Shown piece by piece: positions 691 through 16,871 of a stretch of DNA of 21,446 nucleotides (its first letter is position 1; each line of letters opens with the position of its first letter). The notes under the pieces are model-generated. The model saw only the letters and a program-made list of their open reading frames with translations. It was not told the origin of the DNA and did not search any database. Position numbers and translations under genes: made by a program. The stretch comes from a virus, in IMG/VR virus record IMGVR_UViG_3300013132_000303, positions 1 to 21,446 of that record; one strand, given 5' to 3'.

Positions 691-2733
691 TTAGTATTCG
701 ATAGCCGCTGCAGTTACGCCACCAAGTGTATCACGGAGAGCAGCTGCTGCACCGTTTACGTTGATGGTTGATGTAACCTTAAGTGACTCAACGCCAACCT
801 TGGCAACACCTTCGAAGGTCTCAACGAACATCTTGTAGTCGTTGGTTCCAACTAGTGTGGAGTCGCGGATAACTCCGAGATCCAGTGTGCCACCGTCTAG
901 GAACAAGAATGTTCCCTCGGCGAACAAGTACCATACGAACGTATCGGTAAACTCGTTCATTGCGCTTGCACCTTGTGATGTAGTCATTGCTGAACCATCA
1001 ATTGTGTAGCAAGTGTTGATGCCGCGAGCTGCGATATATCCATCGATCTCGCCGTATGCGTTAAGGGTGTTGTCACCAGGAGCTGCAAGTGCGAAGTCGG
1101 CTGCCATTGCGTCCTTAACCCATGCAGGGATAATTGCGCGTAGTGGGAAGTCCGCTGGAAGGCGGTGACGTCCACGGTATTGAGCAGCTGCGCGACCAAG
1201 TTGTACTAGGAAGTCACGGCCCATACCGATTAAGGATGTGCTTGTAACTGCTGTTGACAATGTGGTCAAGCGGCTTAGGATCTGTGTCTCAGCCTCACGT
1301 GCGTGTTGAATAAGACCTAACTCGTTGTGACGAGCGATCAACTCAGGATATGCACGTGTCATTAGGTTACCAAATTGCAATTGCAATGTAACTGCGTCGG
1401 TAGCAACTGTGTTTTCTGTTGCTGCTGATACTGTTAGGCTTGCCTTTGTTGCAGTATCTGGTGCTGTATCAACTACGTTTGTCCAGACGCCGACTGCGTT
1501 GTCGTAGTCAGATAGTACTGGAGGCGTAATGAAGCGAATACCGCCACGATCTGCTTGGAAACGAGGTAGACAGTCGCGTACTGGACGCTCTGTAGTTCCG
1601 ATTCCGAAGATGTCGTACTTAACGGTAAATGGAGCAGAGTGTCCACCGGAAGCTACGATTGCCTCAGGTGAAGATACTGCTTGGATCTTATCCCAGTTGG
1701 CTTCTGCATCCTGTGTAAGGGTGCGATCCTCTGGGTATTGTGTGGTGATAGATGCAACGATGTGTTGTTCTCCATCTCCACCGTTTACACGGCGTAGACC
1801 ATGTAGACGCTTAGCCATTGCCTCGGCAACGGCCTTCATGTCTGCTAATTCACTGCCTGCTGTATAACCAGGAATATCAGCGCCAGCCGTAATTGCTACG
1901 GGAGCCGCTGATGATTGGGTTAGTGGGCGGCGATCAGCTGGAGCTTCAATAACTTCTACTGAAGCTGCCGGTTCGTTATTTGCGGCGGCGGTCACTGGTG
2001 CCTCCTGATCTTCCTGCACGATTTGTGCTTCGTTTGTTTCTGTGCTTGCTACAACTGCCTCTGCCTCAGCTACAACCTCGGCGGCTGCAACCTCATCAGA
2101 AGTTGTTGTTTCTACGGAGGCAGCCACTGCCTCTGTAGTTGGTTCTACCGCAGCAGCTACTGCCTCGGTAGTTTCAACAGTTACCGCAGGAGCCTCATCG
2201 GCTACTACTGTCTCTGCTGGTGTTTGTACTTCCTCAACTGCAAGTTCAGCAGCTGGAGTTTCCTCCGCTGCGGCCTCTGTAGTTGGCTCAGTTACTTGTG
2301 CTGTTTCTGTTGTTTCAGTTGAAAGTTCAGATACTTCTTCCACAGCAGTTGATGCTTCAGCCATTGGTTTTTCCTCTTCCTTTTCTTCAGCGGCGGGAGC
2401 TTCTGCAGCAGGCTCTTCAGCCGGCTTTATTTCTTCCTCCGCAGGGGTTTCGGTTTCGCCTTCAGGCGTTTCACCTTCTGCTTCACCCTTAACACGCATA
2501 GCGGCCTCGGCTGCGCGTGCTGCTAGCTCTTGAGCTAAAGCTTCACGACGGCTTACTTCACTACGGACGGTGTCAAGCATGTCAGCAAGAGATGTCATCG
2601 CATCTACTGTCTGAGGAGTAGGATCTTCCTTCTCAACCGTTTCAAATTCGCTGACGATGTCAGACTGTAGTTGCGCGACGTCTTCATCGCTTAACTCAGC
2701 CAGCATGTCGAGCTGTTGTTTTATACGGTCCAC
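691..2733 (-). CDS. Major capsid protein with fused N-terminal scaffolding domain
   Basis: This 680-aa protein is the likely main shell subunit. I start it at the GTG at 2733, because GGAGGAGGG ends only 3 nt before it. The ATG at 2775 has no Shine-Dalgarno sequence. Residues 1 to about 90 are charged and helical (KQQLDMLAELSDEDVAQL). Residues about 95-270 are low-complexity Glu/Ala/Thr/Val with repeated TTEAVAA-like units. The rest, from about 290, is an HK97-type shell: a long helix (AYPELIARHNELGLIQHARE), the segment GRHRLPADFPLRAIIP, and a C-terminal beta-rich half. Fused scaffold (delta) domains are known in HK97-like phages and are removed by the prohead protease, which is encoded directly upstream. 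The low-complexity linker is unusually long. Confidence is high for capsid and moderate for the exact start and cleavage site. Confidence 0.85.
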   Translation of the reverse strand: MDRIKQQLDMLAELSDEDVAQLQSDIVSEFETVEKEDPTPQTVDAMTSLADMLDTVRSEVSRREALAQELAARAAEAAMRVKGEAEGETPEGETETPAEEEIKPAEEPAAEAPAAEEKEEEKPMAEASTAVEEVSELSTETTETAQVTEPTTEAAAEETPAAELAVEEVQTPAETVVADEAPAVTVETTEAVAAAVEPTTEAVAASVETTTSDEVAAAEVVAEAEAVVASTETNEAQIVQEDQEAPVTAAANNEPAASVEVIEAPADRRPLTQSSAAPVAITAGADIPGYTAGSELADMKAVAEAMAKRLHGLRRVNGGDGEQHIVASITTQYPEDRTLTQDAEANWDKIQAVSSPEAIVASGGHSAPFTVKYDIFGIGTTERPVRDCLPRFQADRGGIRFITPPVLSDYDNAVGVWTNVVDTAPDTATKASLTVSAATENTVATDAVTLQLQFGNLMTRAYPELIARHNELGLIQHAREAETQILSRLTTLSTAVTSTSLIGMGRDFLVQLGRAAAQYRGRHRLPADFPLRAIIPAWVKDAMAADFALAAPGDNTLNAYGEIDGYIAARGINTCYTIDGSAMTTSQGASAMNEFTDTFVWYLFAEGTFLFLDGGTLDLGVIRDSTLVGTNDYKMFVETFEGVAKVGVESLKVTSTINVNGAAAALRDTLGGVTAAAIEY
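2040..2480 (-). repeat. Low-complexity Glu/Ala/Thr/Val-coding repeats
   Basis: This stretch encodes the scaffold-linker of the capsid fusion. It consists of imperfect repeats of the type (V/P)TTEAVAA(A/S)VE and EEKPAEE-like acidic runs. The composition also creates long open frames on the plus strand that encode only Ser/Ala/Val low-complexity sequence. Those frames are antisense artefacts. Confidence 0.7.
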
Positions 2734-2736
2734 TGT

Positions 2737-2745
2737 CCCTCCTCC
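2737..2745 (-). promoter_or_regulatory. Ribosome binding site deciding the capsid start
   Basis: GGAGGAGGG ends 3 nt before the GTG at 2733, with the GGAGG core 7 nt from it. It lies inside the longer open frame that begins at the ATG at 2775, so it argues for initiation at the GTG. Confidence 0.7.
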
Positions 2746-2775
2746 GGGCCAGTCATGATGAACGAGGTTGTTCAT

Positions 2776-2859: not shown

Positions 2860-5800
2860 CTAAGTTAGGAGTCGAAGAAGTTTGCTCATCTCGGATGAGA
2901 TCTCTGCCTGGGAGTAGTAGTCTCCACCGGACATAAATGACTTGAGGTCTACAGTTGCCTCGTCCGCATCCTTCTTTCCTATCTTGTTTTCTACCCTTGA
3001 GATCATGTCATCGATCAGACCCTTTAGGGCCGGAGGAAGGTCGCTGTACCGAACCTTCTCCGTGTCGCTTCCAAACGGCAGGGGCAGGTTGGCAATTACC
3101 TTGCCTAGAGCCCTTGCCGAGGAACGAACGTTTTCTAACGACTTGGAGTCGAGAGCTCCTGTATCAATTCGGTCAACAATCGAGATAAGGTCCCCTGCTG
3201 AGCGAGCAGCGTCCAGATAGTTTCCAGCATCATCTAGGTTTTCAACCTCCTCTATCTTCTTTATTGCCTCGTCTGACCCAGAGTCTCCAAGGTCGGTCTT
3301 TAGGCGGGCTAGTACCTGGCGGAACTTACCCTTTGCGTCTCGCGGTTGAGTCTCAGGGGTGTATTTACCCTGGTCTTGTACCTCAACCGCTAATGCTTTT
3401 CCCAGTTCTTCACCTGTATTTTCAATCTTTGATGAAAACTCGGCTAGTCTTGTGCGAATATCTGTTAGGTCCTCGTCGATGAGCGAGGCGGACGCCTTCC
3501 TCCACTTATCTGGAATTAGGTCAGCTCTGCCAAGTCCGCGGGCACGCTTCATGATGTGACGGCGAACCGCCGCGCGCTTGCCTGGCTTTGATCGTCCGTA
3601 GGCTTGGATCGAGTCCTTCAAAGAATCAATGTTTGTGATCGGATATGACCCATCAGGTAGGGCATAACCCTTCTTTGCAAGTGCCTCACGTTTTTGACGA
3701 GATATGTATCCAAACTCGTCGTCATACTTTGGCTCGCCGTGGATACGGGCATACGCCGCATCGGCGGAGGCTGAAAGCTGGGCTGCCTTTTCCTCGCGAA
3801 CTACGTTAAACTTCTCTCTTGCGGCCTCGGCCTTAGTCGAAAGTTCAGCATTTTCCAACTGCTCCAATTTTTGTACGCGAGCAGACAGTTCTGCGATAGG
3901 ATCTGATTTCATGCGGGCAAGTACACCTGCACCTGCGGCAACAAGTGCCATGACCGCTCCTGATGCAACGCGGGCGCGTGCGATTGGGAACCCAGGTACG
4001 TTTACCTGGCAGACGGCTACAAGTTCAAGGTGACCCTTGACCGGACGCCAGTCTCCTGAAGGTGCTGACGCACGAAGTGCTCGGATCTGCTCTGGTGTTG
4101 TTCCTGGGCGAAGTGCACCGGCGACCCAGATGCCAAAGGCATCCTCTCCTGCGTGGACGTCGGCGATCGCTGACGCCGTGTCATCATAGTGACGTACGGC
4201 CTCGGCGGCGCTTGCCTCGAGCGAGGCGTGTCCTCCTGCTAATGTTAGTTGACCGACCGGAACGTCCTTTCCGCCGTCGGTGCGTACGACTCCCGTGTGG
4301 AAGTATGCGTACTTGCTTCTGCTGCGTGGTGGCTTGGTTCCAAAGCTCATTCCGATGTGATCAACGTGCCATGCGGCGATGTGACCAAACACACGACCTT
4401 CGTCGTCAACGGTTAGGGGCGTTGCCTTGTTTAACTTTGGATCTTCAAACCAAGAGCTTGGTGGAACGACCGGGATAGATCCTGCGACAATTCCGCAGGC
4501 AACCAGGGCCGATGCCTCACTCTCATCCATTTCATCGACATATGTTCCGTCTGGAATCATAGTGTCCTCCTGTTTCTCGTCCTCGACGAGGTAGATTTGG
4601 CACTCCTGGAATGCCGGTTTAGGCACTAGAGTTACCGCCATCACTCGTGCATGGGTAATCACGAGCTTGTCGGTACCAATCTTACCATCTTCTTGCTTAC
4701 TGTCAGTTAGATCAAGTTCTTGGCTTGCCTCGAACTGATCTAGGTCCGCGGATACTCCACGGATAAATCCATTGCGGACAAGACGCTCAGCCTCCTGGCC
4801 GTACTCGCCCTGGTCAAACACACCGGTCGCGTTTCCGATGCCGTTGCCCATGTCACTTTCAATTCTCTCCATATAGTCTATGCGGCCAACAACAACTGAT
4901 CCGTTATGACCCTCAGCCGTCTTGATCTGCCACAGAAGAGGAAGTGGGAGCTCTCTAATCTCAATCGCGCCCTTCTTAAACTTACGCCCGTCTCCTGACT
5001 CGATCTCCTCAGGTATAACAAGTGGAATGCTAAACTTTGATCCGTCAGCGTACTCGATCTCGGCTCCGGCAGTTAGAACACGGTTACGTGCCTCGTTTGC
5101 TCGAGCAACAAGAGATGTAGTCTCAACTATCTGCTCCGAGGTAAGAATGTCGTCGATTGCCGATAGGGCACCTCGCTTCATTCCTGGGTTACGTCGGTCT
5201 CCAGGCCACATACCTGTCATCTCCTTGTGACGTAGCGAGCAGTACCCCTTCGCTCTTGGACCCATATATTTCTTTAGGTTGCGGTAGCAGCGTGTCCAGT
5301 CACCAGGTGTGTTCCAGCGGATCTTTACAAGTCCACCTTTTCCGATCGTCCAGTAGCGACGCAGTCTTTCAGCGTTTCCGCGGTTGCGGTCTAGTCCACC
5401 GGCAGCTTGAACTGGTTGCTGTTTTACAACTCCGTCTGGAATCAAGGCAAACCTGCAGTACCCTAGTGGCTCAACAGGTTGCTCGATGATCTTGCAGACG
5501 TCACCTCCTGCGTACAACATGCAGTTTGCACACGTGACGCCGATCTCCTTGTTCTCGTTCTCATCGGCAGACTCATATCCTGCCCAGACACCGGAGTCGT
5601 CCTCGTTAAACTTTCCATACTTCTGTGTAATCTCAATTAGTGCGTCGGCAAGCTCCTGCTCCTCAGCAACGATAACTCCAGCCGCGGTTAATGTCTCCTC
5701 ACTAGGAGAGGCTAGGAACATCACGTTTCCACCCTTGCCCCAAAGAACCGTGATAAACTTCTCGTCTGGCATCGCGCTCGCTGAAACCGAGGTAACTCCG

Positions 5801-7764
5801 TCTATCTGCTCGATCACGGACTTCAATGCCGCCGCGTCAAGCGGAACGACAGGAGGAGGAGTGGCGGAGTTCATGTCAACAAGAACTGCCTCGTTGCGTA
5901 CCCACTGCTTGTTCTCTCGGGTATATGTCATCGAGTTGGTCGAGTCGGTCGCCGCAGGGACAAGTGACACTAGGTCGATCACCGCACTTGGGTCATCCTC
6001 GGAGACGATGGCAAAGAACAGAGGTTGTACGTCCGATGTCTCAGGAGTAATAACCTTGTCCTCAGGTGAAGCGGACGCTACCCTAGGAACCGCAGGTTGG
6101 TAGTAAAGCTTGTTTGGGTAGTAGACCTTTCCGTCCGCGCCCTTTACCTTCTTGTTTAAGAATGCCTCGAGCAGCGGGTGCTTATAAGGATCGGTTATCA
6201 TCCTTACGCCGGTTAGGTCCTCAAGCTCCTTGATGAAGGCTGGCTTCTCATATTGCTCAGTTTGACCTGGACCTGTGATGATGCTGCTGCCAGGTTTTGC
6301 AGTAGACTGTCCTGACGTAAACGCATCACGTTGTCCCTTGACCCAGGCAGGCCAGTCACCCTGCATCTTTGCGATGTCCTCCTGGTTCATGCGAGGAAGA
6401 GTTCCAGGTATCTGTGCGTATGGGCGGTCGATCGGCGTGCGAGGTTGTCCAAGAATTCCTGTGGTGTCAAGACCAAGTATCTCAGGAAGAGGAGCTGATT
6501 GAACTCCAGGAGATACGTTACCCTCAGGCTCTGTGAGGTTTGCCGGTATCTCTACGGTCTTACCTGTTGAGTCTAGTTTAATTATTACGCTTGACTTCTG
6601 TGGATTTATCGCAACGATGTTTCCGCGCTTTGTTGTATCACCTGATACGACCACGCGCCCACCTTGCTTTGCAAACTTACCTGTCTTGTCGCGTACCTGT
6701 TTTTGAGCCTTCTGTGATCTTTCCTCGGGAGTGTAGACTCCGTCTCCCTTTTCAGCCGGAGCTCCTACGGCAACCATTGTTCTGTCAAGAAATTCTAGGT
6801 CTAGCTCCTCGGCCGCGCGAAGAACTAACTCCGCCTCCTCGTAGTTTATATCAAATAATGATACAGGTTCCTCTGGGTTTTCCTGGAAGCACGCTGATAG
6901 GAACAGTGCAGACTCTGGGTCGATCTCAACGTGACTAAACTCTACGTTACCTTCAAGCTCGTCTAGCACTAGGTCATAGCTTACGATGTCTGGATCAACC
7001 TCTGCAAGTGTGTGCCAGTGTCCTGCGTCCCACACGGCCAGTGATAGATCCTCGTCTATCTTGTATAGACGGTCTATACCTGATCCGTCCATGCGCATGC
7101 GGGCGACGAACTCGACGTTGCCTGAGCTGAACGCATCGACGTCGGCGTCATAGATTACCTCTTCAATAAAGTTAAACTCGTCGTCCTCGTAACCAGGAAG
7201 CGCATATCCGTCGGCTCTTAGAGCTTTCTTGTTTTCTCGCTCGACGATCTGTTGTGCCCAGCGCCACGCGGCGTCGCCACCCCAGAGAGCCCACGCGATA
7301 CGGCCGCGAGATGGGAAACCGTCCTCGCCTGGCTCGTACCCCTTCGCCTTCTTATCGATCTCATGACGAGGAAAATACTTCGCAATATGCCGTACCTTTT
7401 CGATGCCAATCTGTCCACCCTTCACTAACGTTCTAGCGGTGTTAACTCCAACCGGTGTTCCTCCGCGCTTGTGCTCCTTGCGCCACTCCAGTGCCTTCCT
7501 TGCCTCGGCCTGTGCGGCCTTTGGAATCGTGTAGAGACGGGAGCCTGCGGCAACTACAGCTATGTCGAGAGTAGTTAATGCGGCCTCTGCTAGCTCGTAC
7601 ACAGATGAGCCTTCGTCAATGTCAGAAGGCTCCCATGAGGCTGATGCAGTTAGTGCAGATACCAAACCAGACTCAACTACGATGTTCTCGTCAACGTCAA
7701 CTACTACACCGTTATTTTCGTCTGTAAATAAGACGTGAGACCCACTTTTTCCTACCTGGTTCAT
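2860..7764 (-). CDS. Giant multidomain capsid maturation protease
   Basis: I start this 1634-aa protein at the ATG at 7764, which overlaps the upstream stop as ATGA; an in-frame start at 7818 would overlap by 58 bp. Approximate order: residues 100-170, a phage segment with GRIAWALWGGDAAWRWA; 339-412, YTPEERSQ plus RDKTGKF and a KOW/SH3-like beta stretch; 740-778, a Cys cluster (CANC, later GYCRFALIPDG); 798-855, YWTIGKGG and GYCSLRHKE; 860-1060, the protease core with putative His about 952 (EGHNGSVVVGRID), Ser about 1003 (GVSADL) and a second His (ITHARVMA); 1120-1270, the actinophage protease C-terminal region (PPRSRSKYAYFHTG, VNVPGFPIAR); then a hydrophobic run, a coiled coil, a DUF6582-like region (1345-1428) and a helical tail with a second YTPE...RDAKGKF. 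It should cleave the scaffold of the capsid protein encoded next. Its length far exceeds usual prohead proteases. The protease call is firm; roles of the added domains are unknown. Confidence 0.85.
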   Translation of the reverse strand: MNQVGKSGSHVLFTDENNGVVVDVDENIVVESGLVSALTASASWEPSDIDEGSSVYELAEAALTTLDIAVVAAGSRLYTIPKAAQAEARKALEWRKEHKRGGTPVGVNTARTLVKGGQIGIEKVRHIAKYFPRHEIDKKAKGYEPGEDGFPSRGRIAWALWGGDAAWRWAQQIVERENKKALRADGYALPGYEDDEFNFIEEVIYDADVDAFSSGNVEFVARMRMDGSGIDRLYKIDEDLSLAVWDAGHWHTLAEVDPDIVSYDLVLDELEGNVEFSHVEIDPESALFLSACFQENPEEPVSLFDINYEEAELVLRAAEELDLEFLDRTMVAVGAPAEKGDGVYTPEERSQKAQKQVRDKTGKFAKQGGRVVVSGDTTKRGNIVAINPQKSSVIIKLDSTGKTVEIPANLTEPEGNVSPGVQSAPLPEILGLDTTGILGQPRTPIDRPYAQIPGTLPRMNQEDIAKMQGDWPAWVKGQRDAFTSGQSTAKPGSSIITGPGQTEQYEKPAFIKELEDLTGVRMITDPYKHPLLEAFLNKKVKGADGKVYYPNKLYYQPAVPRVASASPEDKVITPETSDVQPLFFAIVSEDDPSAVIDLVSLVPAATDSTNSMTYTRENKQWVRNEAVLVDMNSATPPPVVPLDAAALKSVIEQIDGVTSVSASAMPDEKFITVLWGKGGNVMFLASPSEETLTAAGVIVAEEQELADALIEITQKYGKFNEDDSGVWAGYESADENENKEIGVTCANCMLYAGGDVCKIIEQPVEPLGYCRFALIPDGVVKQQPVQAAGGLDRNRGNAERLRRYWTIGKGGLVKIRWNTPGDWTRCYRNLKKYMGPRAKGYCSLRHKEMTGMWPGDRRNPGMKRGALSAIDDILTSEQIVETTSLVARANEARNRVLTAGAEIEYADGSKFSIPLVIPEEIESGDGRKFKKGAIEIRELPLPLLWQIKTAEGHNGSVVVGRIDYMERIESDMGNGIGNATGVFDQGEYGQEAERLVRNGFIRGVSADLDQFEASQELDLTDSKQEDGKIGTDKLVITHARVMAVTLVPKPAFQECQIYLVEDEKQEDTMIPDGTYVDEMDESEASALVACGIVAGSIPVVPPSSWFEDPKLNKATPLTVDDEGRVFGHIAAWHVDHIGMSFGTKPPRSRSKYAYFHTGVVRTDGGKDVPVGQLTLAGGHASLEASAAEAVRHYDDTASAIADVHAGEDAFGIWVAGALRPGTTPEQIRALRASAPSGDWRPVKGHLELVAVCQVNVPGFPIARARVASGAVMALVAAGAGVLARMKSDPIAELSARVQKLEQLENAELSTKAEAAREKFNVVREEKAAQLSASADAAYARIHGEPKYDDEFGYISRQKREALAKKGYALPDGSYPITNIDSLKDSIQAYGRSKPGKRAAVRRHIMKRARGLGRADLIPDKWRKASASLIDEDLTDIRTRLAEFSSKIENTGEELGKALAVEVQDQGKYTPETQPRDAKGKFRQVLARLKTDLGDSGSDEAIKKIEEVENLDDAGNYLDAARSAGDLISIVDRIDTGALDSKSLENVRSSARALGKVIANLPLPFGSDTEKVRYSDLPPALKGLIDDMISRVENKIGKKDADEATVDLKSFMSGGDYYSQAEISSEMSKLLRLLT

Positions 7765-8759
7765 TCCTGCTCTTTCTCTTTTCCTGTCTCGTCGGTTACG
7801 GGCCCACCAGCTATCCACGCGTCACAAGTACGCGCGGCAGCACACTTAAAATCAAGCGCTTCGCAATATCCTAAATCGCCCGCGGCAACCACGTCATAGG
7901 AATCTGCGACGTTTTTGTCACCCTCCTGTAGTCCTGTTGCTATGCAGTTAAGCATCTTTGAGGTCTTGACAAACGCCGCGCAGTTTCCACACCGACTGGT
8001 CTTAGCTTCCTCGACGGTCGTGTTCCAGCGATCAGCCTTGGCTTGCCAGAACTCGTCGTTTGGCTCCTCTGGGTTTAACGGACCATATCCGACGTTGTCG
8101 ATCGCGTTTTGGCGATTTTTTATATTTAACACGATGTCCTGGGTCGCAGGAGGACAGGCGTCAGCGTCAACCGCCGCGGTCAACGCGATACTTGAGTCTC
8201 CGATGACGGTGTCATTTACTGTTCCCTTTGGAACTTCCTTTCCATCAAGAACTTCAAGTAGCCAGGCGTTTGGTCCCTGCGGGTCGATCTCTCCAACCGC
8301 CGCAAGTACTAACTCAAGCATTCCGTCCGCCGTGATCTTCTGCTCAGGATCATCACTTGAAAGTTGCTCGTAAAGTTCAGGGTAGTCGATGAATACCTGG
8401 TCAATATCTTCATTTGTTTTTACAAGAATGTCACTTATGTTTGAGTCAGTCAATGAGCGATCAAGTGACTTGTCAATTGAAAGCATCTCCTCGCTTGTGG
8501 CTATCTTCTCATTTTCTTCCTCACGGGGACTAGAAAACTTAAAGAATGTTAGTCCAAACTTTGCCAATGCTAAAAAGTCATCTGCCTTATAGGTACCAGT
8601 AGAACCTTCGGCCTTGTCCATAAGCATCTTTACGCGCCTCTTGGAGTCAAACATGACGTTGTCCTTTGAGAACACATACTTGAATCCCTTGTCGTTTGCG
8701 ATGATTGAAAATATGTGGTCATTTGTGTTTATATCGTAAGCGCGAGCTACCTTTATCAT
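7761..8759 (-). CDS. Structural-module protein with C-terminal six-Cys domain
   Basis: This 332-aa protein starts at ATG 8759 with AGGA about 6 nt upstream, 6 nt after the stop of the giant upstream gene. Residues 1-130 are charged and unrecognised. Residues 130-200 are acidic and include GPNAWLLEVLDG. The C-terminus has the segment EFWQAKADRWNTTVEEAKTS followed by six Cys at 257, 260, 272, 299, 306 and 312 (CGNC, LGYC, FKC, RTCDAW) and GGP. This Cys pattern recurs in uncharacterised proteins of many environmental phages and recalls high-potential iron-sulfur or zinc-binding folds. Metal type and function are not known to me. Its place between the giant kinase-like protein and the protease suggests a virion or head-assembly component. 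Its stop overlaps the protease start by ATGA, so translation is probably coupled. Confidence 0.7.
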   Translation of the reverse strand: MIKVARAYDINTNDHIFSIIANDKGFKYVFSKDNVMFDSKRRVKMLMDKAEGSTGTYKADDFLALAKFGLTFFKFSSPREEENEKIATSEEMLSIDKSLDRSLTDSNISDILVKTNEDIDQVFIDYPELYEQLSSDDPEQKITADGMLELVLAAVGEIDPQGPNAWLLEVLDGKEVPKGTVNDTVIGDSSIALTAAVDADACPPATQDIVLNIKNRQNAIDNVGYGPLNPEEPNDEFWQAKADRWNTTVEEAKTSRCGNCAAFVKTSKMLNCIATGLQEGDKNVADSYDVVAAGDLGYCEALDFKCAAARTCDAWIAGGPVTDETGKEKEQE

Positions 8760-8765
8760 TTTGTC

Positions 8766-11700
8766 CTATCCCCAGTACCCTGGCGTAAGTGCTGACTTCA
8801 ACTCTCTGTTTAACTTTGTTCCACTTGTAATCAGATCCTTTAGCCTGTTCTTCAAGGCAGTGCTAAACGCGTCATACGTTCCCCACTTGTCGATGATCGC
8901 TGCAAGCTCACCGCCCTTAGGCTTAACTAACTCGTTGTCTACGTTATCAATTATCTTTTGAACCTCATTTGCATATATCGCATACGCGCGATCCTTTCCT
9001 GCAAGCCCCACAAGTCCAGGCATGTTGTTTTGATAGACGTTTCCAACGTCCTCTCTCCACTCCATTGCTAGGAAGCTGTAGATCTGATCCTCGGCAATGC
9101 TGTCATCAGTTGTGATGGCAGCAAGTGAGTTATCAACAGGAAACATAACCAACTTGTTGTCTGTTGTGTCGTAGGCAACCATCCAGTTTCCGTCATGACG
9201 ATCCTTGTTGTCTCCTAACATGTCAAGTATAGACATGCGAATTATGTCCTCTGGGTTCTTTAGCTGCTTAATAAATTCCTTAGGTTCATCTCCGTAGTAT
9301 CTTTCTCCATCTGGAGATGGAAGTCCGTATTTTAACATCCTAGATGCATTTACAGGCTCAATCGCAATAGGAAGGTTTGCTCCTGCACGCGACATGATTA
9401 TAAGATCTTCATCTTGGTTTGATCCGCGCACCGCGTAGGTACCGTTCATTCCCATCGCGTTCATCAGGATTGACATCTCTAGCTCTCCGGTGATGCCACG
9501 AACGTTGTTCCAGTTTCTAGAGAGCTCCTCCTTCTTTACATAGAACACCTGACCACTGACAGTGTGGGTAACCTCCCAGATGCTGTTCATTCCACTTTCA
9601 TCAACTGAAAGTTCTCTGTATGTATAACCTGCGTTCTCAATTTTAGCCGCATCATTTTCAAAATCATCAGCGGTAAACTCTGTAAGTGCCTCTCCAACCT
9701 GGAATGGATCTGAGTACGCATGGTCTGCTCGGTACTCTGCTGTCAAGGCGTTACGTAACTTAAACGTATCCTCAATCTTTACCTTACTGTTCTTGTTTAT
9801 CATCTCTAGACTTATGTAGTTGCTTAACGCAGTTTTTGCGTCAGGTGACAACTTACCAAGTGGATCGTTATTTCTTATGACCGTTCGTATCTGGTCAATG
9901 TAGACTGATAACTTTGGGTTATCAGTCTGGAAGTCATTACTTGCTACGTAGGCAATTAATTCTGAGCTAACGTTGGGCTTGTTTTGTCCAGCCTGTATAC
10001 GACGCTCGGCATTTTTAATTTGATTATAGTTTATCGCCTGCACTTGTTCTCTTGCTGAAGGCACAAGATGCTTGGTGCCGTTCCATGACGTTTCTGTCAT
10101 GACTGACTTTCCTATCCAGTTTGTTGCTCCTGGATACCAGCCAACGAGTGCGAGTTCCATAGGCGTTGGAATCTTTGAAACGTCGTACTTTCCGCTGTTT
10201 ATGTCATACGCGTCTGATATCTTCCTGTTTAGACGTCTTGCAACTTCCTTTTCATCTTCATTTCCTTTTCTTAAGATGGTATTTACGATACTTTTTGCGT
10301 TTGATCCATCACTTGATCCCCAGCCAAAGCCGTTTAATGCCCAGACAAACCCGCCTTGATACTCACGGCCACCGGCTGCAAATACCTTTACCTTCTCTAT
10401 CCCGTTTGCGATGTACCAGTTTTCCATGTATCGGTTATACGCACTTGCAAATCCTTTTTTCTTGTTTTTTCCAGTTACCTTCATAAAACTGTTGGATACG
10501 GTAACTTCTTTTGTCTTAGTTCCGTCTAAGTTGTTTATTATCTTAAACAATATTTCACGACGAACAGTACCAACGTTAGCTCCACTTTGGTCTAGTATGT
10601 TAAATGATACCTCCATGTTAACACCCTTGCTACCTGACAAAATTTCTTCAGCAGTTCCCTGTCCATACCCTTGTGCCGAAAGTAGCTGTAAGGTGTAATA
10701 CTCTGCGCCGAACGAAAGTCCGCTACGTGATCCGTATGCGTCAGCGGCCATTATGTTTAGGCGGTTCTGCGCTTCCTTAAGTTTTTCTCGATCACGGCTT
10801 TCGCGCGCGGCTGTAACTTCACGCAGAGCCTTTTCGAGCTCATCTAAGCTTACTCGGTCATTGGCCGCCTTGGCAATCTCCGCGTCACGCATTCCCCACT
10901 CAATAAACTTACTTTGCGGAACGTTCTTCTGTGTTAGATCCTTAATCTCGTCTGGAATCTTGCTGCCGACGTCATTAACACCGACTGTATCACCTGACCT
11001 TGCGATTCTAGGTGAGATCTCTGTTGGACGATCAAGTCTTTCTGTGACGTCGGTAGAAGGTGAAGGTTGAACTGATCTTAAGACATCTGAGACTGCCGCA
11101 GGTGCGGATCCGTCTGCGTTTGATACTGCCTTTACCTTAAATGCCGAGCGAACCGCGGTCTTTCCGTCGTCAAATAAAACACGAACATACTCAGGGTCAT
11201 TTTGAATTGCTACTACTGTTCCTTGCCTTCCATCCTTTGTAGCAACTACTCGCATTCCGGCGGCAAGTATCTTTCCGTCAATGTCAATGGTTGTGTTTGC
11301 GGTTGTGTATCCTGGTTGACGAGGTCCTGGGTACTCAGGCGTAGGCTCGGAAGGTGTCTCATCATCTGGAGTCTCTGCCTGAGGCTGTACTTCCTCATCA
11401 TTGACCATACTATTTGATTCATCACGCAACTTAAATAAAATGTCATTTGTGTTTATGCCTTGGTATTGAAGTGCGTCACGGATAGCCTCAACAGGAACCT
11501 CGGACGTAGAGTCATCATTAAATCTAACTAATGCTGCTCCACTTCCATCTGTAATGCCAGACTTCATCTGTTGTATAAGGTCTGAGCTACTTTTAACCAT
11601 TATTGCTATGTACTTAGGATTATCAGTGTAGCCTAATTCGTCTGGTTCAAGTATAGTAGAGGTATAAGGTGATAGGTCCATGTTGTAGTAGTCTGGATTA

Positions 11701-14099
11701 TCGAAATCAACTGGAATATTTTCAATTAAGTTACCAGGAAACTTCATATCCTCGTCATCTACATTGGTGTCTGCGTTTGTTATAGGTTTTTCTTCGTCTG
11801 GAGTTACATCGTCTATCTGTTTAATTTCATCAATGATGTCAACTATAAGCTTTTCTTCCTCAGGGGTAGGCACTCCGCCCTGAGCCTCAAGAAGCTTACG
11901 TAGATTGTTGCGATTTCCGTTGACGGCATCGTACGCGTTTGCAATTACACGGTTTGGATCTCCACCTGCTAACCACACCGCGTTGTACAGTGCCTCGGCT
12001 GGAACAAACTCGTCGCCTGCGTTAAACTCAAGAGAGCCTGCGCCGGATGCATTTACTCTCTCACCTCTAGGAACATTTATAGGTAGGTTATTCTCAAGTA
12101 TGTCACCGACCTCCGATAGATCAGGAAGGTTTCCATCTCCGTCGTCGTTGATGTCAACTATGTCCTCAACTACGTTCTCATCTACGTCACCGATCAGTGA
12201 CCTAGTAAACGCCCGAACAATTATGTCTAAGGGAAATCTAACCGCAATCCTGTTAGGCGCGTCGGTGAAGTCGGTTGACTCCTCATCTACACGTCCTTCA
12301 GGCTCATAACTTACCGCGCGTAGTCTAAATGCTCCGTCAGGAACGTCAAACCCAGAAAAAAGTTCTGGTGCTGATGTCTCCGCGGAGCTAGATACTTTTG
12401 GGAGTACTGTATCCTCATCAATCTTAGGCAACTCGTCAACAACAGTTGAGTCTATTGGATCAAGTCCGATCGTTGCGCGACCTTGGTTTATCTGGTCAAT
12501 TATCTTAGGAGTATCCTCGGTTATCTGATCCCACGATGTAGCAGGTCTTGCGTTATCAAACCAGAATCCACCCGTACCGTAGTTGATGTTTCCATCGCGA
12601 CCTACAACAGCAACGAGATACTCGTCGTTTCTTGTTGCTCCTGGAATATCCTTGTAGTACGTCTCGCTGATCTCGCTTGGATCTATCCTGGAGTACCAGC
12701 CGTCCGGCAGATCTCGTCCCTGCGAGTCCTTTCCTGACAACGCTCTCTCAAGTTGATCTTCAATTCTCTTGTTTGACTCCTCGTTTTGAGGAACCTGGTC
12801 CTTAAGCTGCTTTATCTCCTGTTGAATCTCTCGGTTCATTCTTGAGTAGCGAGGCTCAGGACGTTCTCCGTCACCAAGTGGAAGTTGACCGGACTCTACG
12901 TCCTCCTTGTACTTGTCGTACGCGTCCTCGTCAGCTTCCGCAACGTTCTGTGCGTCGGCCCAGGTCTTAGCGTCTCCAACCTTGTCGCCTGTGTTTCCCT
13001 CAGGGTCAAGGCGGTGAACTGAGTATCCATCGTCTGTTGGAATTACCTTGTAGTCATCATCTGACGTAAATGATCCGTCGTCGTTCTTCTTCCAACCTGA
13101 AGGTGTGTCAACCCTTGTGTTAAGCAGATCCTCGATGTTTGGAATTGACTCGTCAAACTGAGATGAAAGTTTATATCTTGATTTTTTGTCTGTGTCAACT
13201 CCCGCTCGCTCAAGCTCTGCCTCTGATAGTCTTGCCTTGAAGACCTCGGCGTTGCTGTTGCTTACGGAGTAGATACCGTCAGGGATGTTTTTATCTCCCT
13301 TAACCTCAACTAAACCTGCATTTGCCTCCTTCCTTGCCCAGTTTCCAGAGTATCCTGCGCTTGAATCACTGCCGACGTACGTTCCAGCGGCGGTTGCAGT
13401 ATTTCCGTTTGATAGTCTAAACTTAAAGTTAATTCCACGTCCCATCTCAACCCAGCGGCCGTAGCGATCACGCCACTGCAACTTTACGCGAGCACGTCGC
13501 GCGGCTGATGAGTTTCCATCACCAAATGAAAACGCCGCAACAAGTGCAGGCATGTCGATCTTTAGGTACGCAGGAAGTGCTGATGCCTTCACCGCGCTAA
13601 GACGAATAAACGCGTGCTCGCGCTCGAGAGATCCTGGCAGCTGCGAGTACGCCGCCGCAACTAGGTGACGAACGTCATCTGAGATTCCTGGGTCGGCTGA
13701 GAGCCAGGCTGCATACCTTTGTAGATAGTCCTCGGTTGACAAAGATGCATTGTGATCTGACAGCGGGTGTCCTGCCGGTAGAAGGTCCGTGTGCTTTGCA
13801 TATGAGTCATTTGCACGAAATGTATTTTGATTTAGCGAGATAAACTTGTTTACCTCACGTAAAACTCCAGCCTCACGTGACTCGTCTGACAAAGATGAAA
13901 GCTCCTTCATCGCACGGGCCATGATGATAAGTGCTGAGCGCGGTGTAACCTGTCTCTCCGGCAGTGCCACGTTGTTTGCAAACGTAACAAGTTGAAGTAC
14001 CTTCTCGTTAATCGAGTCTGAGGTCTTAACGTCAATCTTTACCTCAGCGGCCTGCCTACCTTCAACTAGGCCGATCATGCGATCAATAGGTAGATCCAA
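8766..14099 (-). CDS. Giant virion-module protein with GNAT-like and kinase-like domains
   Basis: This 1777-aa protein starts at a TTG at 14099 with AGGAG 7 nt upstream. Visible parts, approximate residues: TDLLPAGHP (about 100); RDRYGRWVEMGR with a beta-rich stretch (207-300); several acidic modules (340-900), two of which look duplicated around F-N...VP-x-EA; a KOW/SH3-like segment (942-990, GMRVVATKDGRQGTVV); a GNAT-like stretch (1160-1345, KKKGFASAYNRYM, GGFVWALNGFGW); and a kinase-like C-terminus (1490-1730). The last has FYVKK, a Glu in a following helix (TGELEMSILMNAMG), a hinge-like DLIIMSRAG, GDNKDRHDGNWM and FPVDNSLA. That is the order of Lys, Glu, hinge, catalytic loop and metal-binding loop in PI3/4-kinase-, HipA- or Fam20-like folds. 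The position between portal and protease is where actinophages often carry MuF-type or effector fusions, but I recognise no MuF domain. A role as an injected effector is inference. Confidence 0.7.
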   Translation of the reverse strand: MDLPIDRMIGLVEGRQAAEVKIDVKTSDSINEKVLQLVTFANNVALPERQVTPRSALIIMARAMKELSSLSDESREAGVLREVNKFISLNQNTFRANDSYAKHTDLLPAGHPLSDHNASLSTEDYLQRYAAWLSADPGISDDVRHLVAAAYSQLPGSLEREHAFIRLSAVKASALPAYLKIDMPALVAAFSFGDGNSSAARRARVKLQWRDRYGRWVEMGRGINFKFRLSNGNTATAAGTYVGSDSSAGYSGNWARKEANAGLVEVKGDKNIPDGIYSVSNSNAEVFKARLSEAELERAGVDTDKKSRYKLSSQFDESIPNIEDLLNTRVDTPSGWKKNDDGSFTSDDDYKVIPTDDGYSVHRLDPEGNTGDKVGDAKTWADAQNVAEADEDAYDKYKEDVESGQLPLGDGERPEPRYSRMNREIQQEIKQLKDQVPQNEESNKRIEDQLERALSGKDSQGRDLPDGWYSRIDPSEISETYYKDIPGATRNDEYLVAVVGRDGNINYGTGGFWFDNARPATSWDQITEDTPKIIDQINQGRATIGLDPIDSTVVDELPKIDEDTVLPKVSSSAETSAPELFSGFDVPDGAFRLRAVSYEPEGRVDEESTDFTDAPNRIAVRFPLDIIVRAFTRSLIGDVDENVVEDIVDINDDGDGNLPDLSEVGDILENNLPINVPRGERVNASGAGSLEFNAGDEFVPAEALYNAVWLAGGDPNRVIANAYDAVNGNRNNLRKLLEAQGGVPTPEEEKLIVDIIDEIKQIDDVTPDEEKPITNADTNVDDEDMKFPGNLIENIPVDFDNPDYYNMDLSPYTSTILEPDELGYTDNPKYIAIMVKSSSDLIQQMKSGITDGSGAALVRFNDDSTSEVPVEAIRDALQYQGINTNDILFKLRDESNSMVNDEEVQPQAETPDDETPSEPTPEYPGPRQPGYTTANTTIDIDGKILAAGMRVVATKDGRQGTVVAIQNDPEYVRVLFDDGKTAVRSAFKVKAVSNADGSAPAAVSDVLRSVQPSPSTDVTERLDRPTEISPRIARSGDTVGVNDVGSKIPDEIKDLTQKNVPQSKFIEWGMRDAEIAKAANDRVSLDELEKALREVTAARESRDREKLKEAQNRLNIMAADAYGSRSGLSFGAEYYTLQLLSAQGYGQGTAEEILSGSKGVNMEVSFNILDQSGANVGTVRREILFKIINNLDGTKTKEVTVSNSFMKVTGKNKKKGFASAYNRYMENWYIANGIEKVKVFAAGGREYQGGFVWALNGFGWGSSDGSNAKSIVNTILRKGNEDEKEVARRLNRKISDAYDINSGKYDVSKIPTPMELALVGWYPGATNWIGKSVMTETSWNGTKHLVPSAREQVQAINYNQIKNAERRIQAGQNKPNVSSELIAYVASNDFQTDNPKLSVYIDQIRTVIRNNDPLGKLSPDAKTALSNYISLEMINKNSKVKIEDTFKLRNALTAEYRADHAYSDPFQVGEALTEFTADDFENDAAKIENAGYTYRELSVDESGMNSIWEVTHTVSGQVFYVKKEELSRNWNNVRGITGELEMSILMNAMGMNGTYAVRGSNQDEDLIIMSRAGANLPIAIEPVNASRMLKYGLPSPDGERYYGDEPKEFIKQLKNPEDIIRMSILDMLGDNKDRHDGNWMVAYDTTDNKLVMFPVDNSLAAITTDDSIAEDQIYSFLAMEWREDVGNVYQNNMPGLVGLAGKDRAYAIYANEVQKIIDNVDNELVKPKGGELAAIIDKWGTYDAFSTALKNRLKDLITSGTKLNRELKSALTPGYWG

Positions 14100-14101
14100 C
14101 T

Positions 14102-15172
14102 TTATTCTCCTGATGCCTGTCGACGTCTTCTTGGTAAAAGATCTGAGTCCTTGGAGTTGTATAGGTTTGTCGCTAGGTCATACGCGCGTTGAAACGGTAC
14201 GTCGCCGTCGCGCACGCCGCGTAGCCACGCACCACGTAGCGCTGGGATCACCTCGTAGCCAAGTCCTGTGTACTCTGCCATCGAGTAGATCGCGTGCTCA
14301 GGAGAGCCGTATTCATCGGCGCTCTTAAGTGCAACCTCAAGAAGCTCGTGTTGAATAAGCGAGGCCTCACCGCGACTTGATCTAGGATGTGCCTTAGGCA
14401 AAAGATCGTTGTCCTGCTTGTAGTTTGGATTGGCGGGACGTCCTGACCTTAGAAGTTTTAGAAATGCGTTAACGCGAGCCATCGCCCACTGGTCACGGGT
14501 CTTACCTGGTCGGTGACTAGATGAGAACGCTCCTGATCCTCTGCGGTAGACAGCCTTCAGCATCGGAAGAGTTGCCTTGCGTCCTGGAGACGCATTCTTG
14601 TTATGTTCCTCAATCTTGTTGCGTAGTGCCTTCTCAACCTTTGCACTAAATACTATCTTCTTTCCACCCGCGGCTGAGCCTGGCGCGTTTTTTCTTGAGC
14701 CGTAGATGCGGTCCTTCTTAGGTGCTCTGCGTGACGCGGCAAATTCCTTCGCGGCTGCCGAGTCCTTTGGCACACAGTTTGGGACCATCTTTCCGTTCTT
14801 TTCCTTCATGCCAACCTGAACGTATCCGTCCCAGCATGAACCTTGGGCAGCGGCGGTAACCGGACCAAGTGCATCAAGGCGAGCCTCGCACATACAGGTT
14901 ATCGGACAAGGACACTCTTCTGAAGGACAGTTTTCACAGGCACAGCCGAGCTCGTCACAGAACGGGCAATCATACTCGCCTTCAACAATTACTTCACCCG
15001 CAGGAGCGTCTTCTAAATCATCATAGTTGTCTGACACAGGAGATTCATCAACAACACTAATAGTGGGTGTAACAGATACCTCATCCTTTAGGCGTGAGTA
15101 GAGCTCAGCCATCTTAAGAAGAATATCCGCTGCCTCCTGTGAGGTTGGGTCCTTGTGACTATCGTTATGCAC
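14102..15172 (-). CDS. Cys-rich head-module protein
   Basis: I start this 356-aa protein at the GTG at 15172, inside the last codons of the portal gene (8-bp overlap), with AGGAG 10 nt upstream. An in-frame ATG at 15247 would give a longer overlap and an unlikely Leu-rich N-terminus. Features in order: an acidic N-terminal third; a dense Cys cluster (FCDELGCACENCPSEECPC, ITCMCEAR) likely to bind metal; SCWDGYVQVGMK...VPNCVP, a short motif seen in other phage structural proteins; a basic stretch; then LKAVYRRGSGAFSSSHRPG and WAMARVNAFL, a segment I associate with conserved phage proteins next to the portal; and DNDLLPKAHP. The C-terminal SDLLPRRRR repeats the DLLP theme. Its function is unknown; a head or packaging role fits the context. 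Confidence 0.7.
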   Translation of the reverse strand: MHNDSHKDPTSQEAADILLKMAELYSRLKDEVSVTPTISVVDESPVSDNYDDLEDAPAGEVIVEGEYDCPFCDELGCACENCPSEECPCPITCMCEARLDALGPVTAAAQGSCWDGYVQVGMKEKNGKMVPNCVPKDSAAAKEFAASRRAPKKDRIYGSRKNAPGSAAGGKKIVFSAKVEKALRNKIEEHNKNASPGRKATLPMLKAVYRRGSGAFSSSHRPGKTRDQWAMARVNAFLKLLRSGRPANPNYKQDNDLLPKAHPRSSRGEASLIQHELLEVALKSADEYGSPEHAIYSMAEYTGLGYEVIPALRGAWLRGVRDGDVPFQRAYDLATNLYNSKDSDLLPRRRRQASGE

Positions 15173-16871
15173 CTGGTGTCTGCTCCTGTTCCTGGGTAGG
15201 TTCATCAATTTCATCAGAAGGAGGAGTAACTCCCGCCGCCTCATCAAGCGCCTGTTGAATCTCAGGTGGTATCGGCGCAGGTGATCCTGCGTTTTGAACC
15301 TCGCGGATCTTGTTCATGAACTCCGGAGAGATCGCGTTTATCATCGCCTCGGTGAGCTCAGGAGATAGAGATCCCTTCTCAACTAGAAGACGAATTGCAA
15401 GCTCCTTGGCGTCAGGGGCATCTGCGGCGGAGAAGCCGTGTGCGCGTCTCCATGCCTCCATCGACACCGCCATCCGGTCATATCCGGAGTCCGCGTCTGA
15501 CGCGCGGTCATTTCTTGTTGCAACCTGTGATGGGTCATACCAAACACAGATCTTCTTTACGTCCTCCTCGGTAAAGCCTGACGCGATAAGCGCTGGTCGT
15601 AGGTACACAACCGTGATCGCGTCGGCGATCAAGAGCATCAACGGCTCGATGTGCGCCTTGTACAGAGCCTCGTCGATCTGAAGCGCGTTTGAGTACTTAA
15701 CGTTTGCTAGTCCTGTGACGATGTCCTTAGGAACGTCAAGTCCCTGAAGGATACGCTCGAGCACTCGGTCAGCGCGTTGGGCAAGCGCTGGGTCAAACGA
15801 GCGCTCAAACTTAAACTGCTTAATCTTGTCGCCAAGCTCCGCAGGTCCGCGGATGATAAGTGGCACGACCGCACTTGCGGAGTCCTCGTCGCGGATCGGA
15901 GTTGTCATCGCGTCGATGAGCTGATCCTCAAACTCGTCCTCGGCCTCCTCGACCGTTACACCTGGATTTAACTCGTTCTCGTCGTCATAAGGGTAGTCAG
16001 GATCTCCCTGCGCGGCGACTGAAAGTCCGTCCGGCAGATAGAGTGCTCCTGCGTTTAGGCGTGACCTTGCGGTCGCGCGAAACGTTCTGTTTAAAAGTAA
16101 AAGTTCAGCGCAAAGGTCAAGTAGACCTCTTAGACTTGAGTCAGCCTCCTCGGAGTAGCGTGGGTGAGCTCTCCAGATGCGTCCAACGAACGCCTGGTTT
16201 GGAAGCTTGATTGCCTTGTCGCTGCCGCGACTTGCGGACGTGATGTCACGACGTGGAACGATCATGTATGAGTTTCTTGAGTCAACCTGTAGCTCGTCTG
16301 TAGATCGGATGTCCCATGACTCTGGAGTTCCTGTTCCCTGCTTTGCAGGGAACTGCACAAGATAGCACTCACCTGACACTGATAGGTTTAGTGCCGCGTC
16401 ACGTAATAAACCGGCCTGTCCCCCGTATGCGGAGTCAAGTCTTGACAGTGCACGCTCCGCGGCTGAGGCAAGTCGTGGATCGATAAAGTTACTTGAGCGA
16501 ACTGATACCGGAGTCTCCGCAGGGTTATCAATTGCCGCCGCGTAGAGACGAATTCTTGAGACGACGGACGCAACTAGGTTAAATGCGTACTTAACCTCGC
16601 CGATCGCGTCGTAGTACTCCCAAGCCTCACCCTGCCAGTCACTTGCTCCTCCGGCACGGCGTTGCTTAAAGTACTCAACCTCTCCCTTGTCGTTGAGAGG
16701 AATGCGGGCTGCTGCCGCGGTCATTGCTCGCGGTGAAGAATATGCAACAGGTTGCGCGAACGTTGACTCGCTCGTGATGAGCGTTATCTGACTTGGAATC
16801 TGCTTAGGTTTGTTTTGAGAACGAGAGGTCAGACGTGTGTTGCGAGGTGTATCTTTTCTAAATACTGCCAA
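15165..16871 (-). CDS. Portal protein
   Basis: This 568-aa protein is the probable dodecameric portal through which DNA enters and leaves the head. It starts at a TTG at 16871 with GAGGAG 6 nt upstream. Supporting features are the N-terminal helix after EAWEYYDAIGEVKYAFNLVASVVSRIRLY, the Trp-containing segment AFVGRIWRAHPRYSEEADSSLRG, and the region at about residues 376-400 (GLDVPKDIVTGLANVKYSNALQIDE) with the helix that follows. These are typical of the SPP1/HK97-type portals of actinophages. The C-terminus is Pro/Glu/Gln-rich and disordered. Its length is normal for the family. It opens the head module, 39 bp after the DUF1360-like gene, and its end overlaps the next gene by 8 bp. Confidence 0.88.
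   Translation of the reverse strand: MAVFRKDTPRNTRLTSRSQNKPKQIPSQITLITSESTFAQPVAYSSPRAMTAAAARIPLNDKGEVEYFKQRRAGGASDWQGEAWEYYDAIGEVKYAFNLVASVVSRIRLYAAAIDNPAETPVSVRSSNFIDPRLASAAERALSRLDSAYGGQAGLLRDAALNLSVSGECYLVQFPAKQGTGTPESWDIRSTDELQVDSRNSYMIVPRRDITSASRGSDKAIKLPNQAFVGRIWRAHPRYSEEADSSLRGLLDLCAELLLLNRTFRATARSRLNAGALYLPDGLSVAAQGDPDYPYDDENELNPGVTVEEAEDEFEDQLIDAMTTPIRDEDSASAVVPLIIRGPAELGDKIKQFKFERSFDPALAQRADRVLERILQGLDVPKDIVTGLANVKYSNALQIDEALYKAHIEPLMLLIADAITVVYLRPALIASGFTEEDVKKICVWYDPSQVATRNDRASDADSGYDRMAVSMEAWRRAHGFSAADAPDAKELAIRLLVEKGSLSPELTEAMINAISPEFMNKIREVQNAGSPAPIPPEIQQALDEAAGVTPPSDEIDEPTQEQEQTPGA

Follow-up and report, generated by a model that had tools for sequence, protein, structure and literature searches.

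An intact composite capsid maturation protease of actinophages with a Peptidase S78 domain, a probable second protease domain and candidate cleavage motifs

The window, i.e. the whole 21.4 kb stretch of an IMG/VR virus record that was analyzed, carries on its minus strand, in this order, genes for the portal, a 381-aa DUF5824 protein, a 1777-aa protein, a 332-aa Cys-containing protein, a giant protease and the major capsid protein, followed by further genes. The portal gene (15165..16871, minus strand) lies upstream of the giant protease gene in the same operon-like array, and the gene after it (14102-15247, minus strand) encodes the DUF5824 protein (E 2e-7). DUF5824 was also weakly matched (E 0.0012) in a fusion of module W (see below), S78 protease and capsid protein in Roseobacter phage CRP-831. 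The 1777-aa neighbor (8766-14099, minus strand) showed a weak PI3/PI4-kinase-like match at its C-terminus (residues 1619-1658, E 8.5e-4), which recurs in Pumpernickel (E 7.2e-5) and in locus L045 (E 0.0016). The 332-aa protein (7761-8759, minus strand) has a C-terminal four-Cys pattern, CxxC...C...GYC, and its positional counterpart in phage DSL-LC01 is annotated as a high potential iron-sulfur protein (HiPIP). The giant protease gene (2860..7764, minus strand) sits between the portal gene and the major capsid gene (691..2775, minus strand), as is usual for S78 proteases.

The giant ORF encodes 1634 aa when read from ATG 7764 and 1652 aa when read from GTG 7818. ATG 7764, which overlaps the stop codon of the upstream gene (ATGA), lies downstream of a purine-rich stretch and is close to where the orthologue alignments mostly start, is judged from these signals to be the better start. 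Residue numbers refer to the 1652-residue ORF unless stated otherwise; subtraction of 18 gives those of the 1634-residue protein. With tblastn 955 phage records were retrieved, and the eight of them that cover at least 80% of the giant protein all belong to actinophages. In IMG/VR 80 loci were found with best-segment identities of 54-100%, among them a contig (L002) whose protein is 100% identical to that of the window and many relatives at 56-87% that have it likewise as one ORF. Because these loci mostly carry single ORFs of 1500-1870 aa, the giant size is a trait of the clade. An earlier note, made from the DNA sequence, had described a 1634-aa chain as unusually large; the ORF 7764..2860 is intact at that length, but its size is the rule in the clade and not peculiar to the phage of the window, as 61 distinct full-length sequences (window included) entered our alignment set. 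That an assembly or sequencing artefact joined separate genes, a doubt raised in the same note, can be dismissed with near certainty: relatives do have split versions with proper start/stop overlaps, but the same single long ORF recurs intact in tens of independent contigs, among the 61 full-length orthologues, and in isolated and sequenced Microbacterium phages. The ORF is an intact, real and conserved composite head protease.

Module HMMs built from orthologue segments were scanned across all loci and gave the order W-B-K-P-T-Fe-Y-D1-D2-S-C for the window, where Fe denotes the Cys module and all modules are encoded on the minus strand. Module W (7219..7530) contains GRIAWALWGGD, is phrog_2859-like, has a net charge of +10 and also heads protease-capsid fusions of roseophages and cyanophages. 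It is followed by the strongly acidic module B (6754..7218, net charge -33), by module K (6529..6753), which holds the first of two RDxxGKF motifs (residues 376 and 1493) and is present too in some homologues of the 1777-aa neighbor, and by modules P and T (5719..6528), whose border at about residue 577-613 is the most frequent point of gene splitting. The optional Cys module (5404..5616) has the pattern CxxC-x9-C-x12-GYC. Its four Cys show HiPIP-like spacing, though formal assignment to HiPIP was rejected since the PF01355 score stayed below the cut-off (13.7 versus 22 bits, E 0.08). This module occupies its place in about 7% of the orthologues and is elsewhere mostly found in an upstream gene, as in many loci, or after S, as in DSL-LC01, and in the following small ORF in L050. 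Module Y (5164..5403), with YWTIGKGG and a net charge of +15, corresponds to phrog_6439; it was found in 227 phage records, partly as a separate small gene, and is duplicated in several loci. The domains D1 (4534..5043; residues 908-1077 in the 1634 numbering) and D2 (3913..4491; residues 1092-1284 in the 1634 numbering) are followed by module S (3493..3705; KKGYALPDGSYPI.., net charge +13) and by the C-terminal module (2863..3369), which bears the second RDxxGKF and forms a gene of its own in DSL-LC01. Most orthologues keep this order, minus the Cys module. The charges of the basic modules W, Y and S and of the acidic module B are compatible with putative binding to DNA or scaffold.

The motifs that the earlier note had named, i.e. 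GRIAWALWGGD, a Cys cluster (CxxC-x9-C-x12-C), YWTIGKGG and two RDxxGKF repeats, were all recovered. Its protease core, placed at residues 860-1060, exists but sits slightly further on, at D1. The label 'DUF6582-like' for module S was given up, as no Pfam family matched this segment at E ≤ 10. On the whole, its picture of a prohead protease joined to modules that are separate elsewhere holds, apart from this label and the single protease domain, which probably has to become two.

To characterize D1, hhalign comparisons with an S78 profile of 18 rows (HK97 gp4 and 17 further stretches) were used. D1 matched this profile with a probability of 95% and E 2.7e-8, whereas the controls gave E values of 0.1-0.3 (seven other modules) and 0.07-0.09 (reversed profiles); the Pfam score of D1 falls under the gathering cut-off. 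The profile alignment puts His971 (4906-4908) and Ser1023 (4750-4752) onto the catalytic His65 and Ser114 of HK97 gp4. By homology, D1 is assigned as a prohead protease (Peptidase S78) domain. Also the gene of HK97 gp4 precedes the capsid gene, but gp4 is a protein of 225 aa with one domain and without accessory modules.

A His/Ser pair is present in D2 as well, namely His1210 (4189-4191) and Ser1254 (4057-4059), and the pairs of both domains are invariant in 38 aligned sequences with 39-93% identity to the window. Against the S78 profile D2 reached E 0.031, which is not significant alone, although all 40 column shuffles scored worse. Between D1 and D2 themselves hhalign detected no similarity (E 0.18). 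A single-domain AlphaFold model of D2 (pLDDT 75, pTM 0.75) was compared with BFVD by Foldseek and retrieved 12 members of its own family first; the named neighbors beyond this family were mostly prohead or head maturation proteases (best E 1.9e-3, probability 0.90-0.96). The top PDB match of this model was the HSV-1 protease, which at E 0.18 was not significant. A model spanning D1 and D2 had low confidence (pTM 0.49), gave no useful PDB match and was set aside as too uncertain. The D2 family comprises 833 phage records. When the whole records of Forza, GMA2, Fugax and Phinally, four complete phages with D2, were searched, a match to S78 or D1 was absent, and therefore D2 is the sole candidate found if these phages process their capsid protein. 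Alternatively, D1 could be the sole protease; D2 would then serve structure or targeting in actinophage heads, and its conserved His and Ser would be fortuitous. This would agree with the non-significant match of D2 alone to the S78 profile, with the undetectable likeness of the two domains and with the annotation of some D2 homologues, e.g. as portal, virion structural protein or RNA ligase, but the four D2-only phages, the proteases among the Foldseek neighbors and the invariant His1210 and Ser1254 argue against it, and we regard it as unlikely. On structural and circumstantial support, we regard D2 as a probable second domain that is remotely prohead-protease-like; it would adopt a protease fold, and one or both domains would be active. 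This tandem reading makes the poorly characterized D2 family directly testable, with the D2-only phages as the simple case.

Pumpernickel gp84 and Cece gp70, the latter annotated as capsid maturation protease, have the modules B-K-P-T-Y-D1-D2-S-C on a single ORF, here about 1530-1550 aa long, as in the window, while module W was not detected in them. In these two and the other Microbacterium phages A3Wally, Big4 and Zooman the gene also precedes the capsid gene; their proteins, mostly annotated as hypothetical, share 43-45% identity with that of the window and lack the Cys module. Normal-sized homologues without the modules, a possibility considered in the earlier note, do exist: EarickHC gp25 has 489 aa, prophage versions have about 400 aa, and the Streptomyces loci L205 and L206 contain open frames that measure about 390-430 aa. 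EarickHC gp25 and the proteases of Streptomyces and Corynebacterium prophages carry D1-D2 with the conserved residues of the window. The conserved residues of D2 are likewise found in the D2-only proteins Forza gp84 and Fugax gp18. Unlike the window's protein, these D1-D2 and D2-only relatives are of normal size or fused to other domains, e.g. MuF, NUDIX or RNA ligase, and not to W, B, K, T, S or C. As in the window, module W and an S78 protease share one chain in Roseobacter phage CRP-831 and in Synechococcus phage S-CBS1, but this head polyprotein extends onto the capsid protein itself and D2 was not detected in it.

Gene order was compared for split versions of the giant protein. In DSL-LC01 (59% identity) three ORFs called capsid maturation protease carry the window's modules as W-B-K-P, T-Y-D1-D2-S and C, i.e. 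the protein is split between P and T and again before C, and the Cys module stands after S and not before Y. DSL-LC01 was described in PMC10611076, the main text of which does not mention a protease. Splits between P and T were also found in L033 and L044, and a split before the C module in L050; the junctions in these three are ordinary stop-start arrangements, in L033 with a AAAGGAGG site. In Atuin and in Forza/GMA2 the protein is spread over two or more genes. L059 was not counted as a true split because about 150 bases are shared by its two ORFs, an arrangement that suggests a deletion or a frameshift at this place. In a quick FastTree phylogeny of D1 and D2 with modest node support (0.44-0.90), L033 fell among unsplit relatives, away from the group of L044, L050 and DSL-LC01, and at least two independent splitting events are therefore likely. 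Modules are also reordered: L198 has W placed between D1 and D2, and in L213 Y follows D2. Since DSL-LC01, L033, L044, L050, Atuin and Forza split at module borders, or relatives reorder the modules, the proposal of the earlier note that the chain merges functions which other actinophages spread over several genes proved right in essence. Together, the split and fused versions amount to a natural experiment that could show which components of such a protease have to be linked.

The linkers of the giant protein repeatedly contain short sequences of the type LTASA, LTAGA, LVACG and LVAAG. Matches to [LMVI][TVS][AS][AGSC][AGSC] occurred nine times in the window's protease versus 0.8 expected from shuffles. 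Across loci, a motif of approximately [LVI][TVS]A[ASG][ASG], which was chosen after sequence inspection and counted over orthologous copies that are not independent, was observed 486 times in the protease versus 57 expected (ratio about 8.5) and 242 times in the capsid protein versus 39 expected (ratio about 6). The ratio was 3.4-3.8 in upstream ORFs (portal and others) and 1.2-1.4 in the mostly tail-related downstream ORFs (65 observed versus 48-54 expected); the enrichment is limited to head proteins, and control motifs in the protease gave 0.3-1.2 (scrambled) and 2.4 (reversed). Some matches may simply be part of the normal fold, e.g. IVASGGH within the capsid protein. In the window's protease LTASA (7639..7653, minus strand) lies near the N-terminus, where most of 16 displayed orthologues have L[TVI]ASA, LVACG/IVAGS (4477..4506, minus strand) lies in the D1-D2 linker, and LVAAG (3931..3945, minus strand), conserved in 61 of 61 orthologues, follows D2 in the low-confidence tail of its model. 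In the capsid protein [LIVM][TV]AG[AS][DE] was matched in 59 of 59 sequences, and in the twelve displayed the match is VAITAGADIPGY, at about 1876-1893 in the window, which as a further candidate cleavage site marks the border between the Ala/Glu-rich N-terminal region and the capsid fold. We consider [LVI][TVS]A[ASG][ASG] a candidate cleavage site; if it is the cut site, cleavage would be predictable in hundreds of actinophages. Two hypotheses are thereby added to the earlier note, that of a tandem protease and that of a cleavage motif. A search for a solved homologue of the giant protein, or of four capsid proteins for their mature N-terminus, found none. Among titles and abstracts of the open literature searched, none was on point for tandem S78 domains, actinophage cleavage sites or phage HiPIP modules.

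Taken together, we favor the reading that the giant protein is a composite head-maturation protease of actinophages, which combines D1, a probable second protease-like domain D2 and flanking head modules, with putative cutting of the capsid protein and of itself. The protease would most likely be incorporated into the prohead, act on the N-terminal propeptide of the capsid protein and cut its own chain at the short [LVI][TVS]A[ASG][ASG] linkers. This would free W, Y and S, the basic modules, inside the head, where they may bind DNA or scaffold and be retained. Autocleavage and long propeptides have been documented for the prohead proteases of SPN3US (PMC10052503). More tentatively, the protein could be a head polyprotein whose tandem prohead/herpes-type proteases cut it at common short sites, which would supply equal amounts of DNA- or scaffold-binding modules to the head, relatives supplying them likewise from split genes. 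The protein could also stay uncut, as one long protease with lasting scaffold-like or portal-binding extensions, to be degraded or expelled once the head has matured. Departure from the head is common for scaffold-type proteins, and module order and spacing are kept in most orthologues, as expected for one working unit. Nevertheless, gene splits and reordered modules show that covalent linkage is dispensable and the candidate motif is found in linkers, among them those that flank D2, which makes an uncut protein rather doubtful.

Some minor observations were made in relatives. In EarickHC (OP068338.1) two further ORFs, at 43957-44133 and 14834-15010, match the first part of the D1 profile (E 5.9e-7 and 0.0012), one of them overlapping the capsid gene. 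A D1-D2 protein was found outside Actinomycetota in a Syntrophomonadaceae-assigned MAG (L203), possibly a mis-binned contig. GMA2 Orf10 (L086, 4071-6722) is a head maturation protease according to RefSeq, yet its whole length matches the RNA ligase family phrog_2659.
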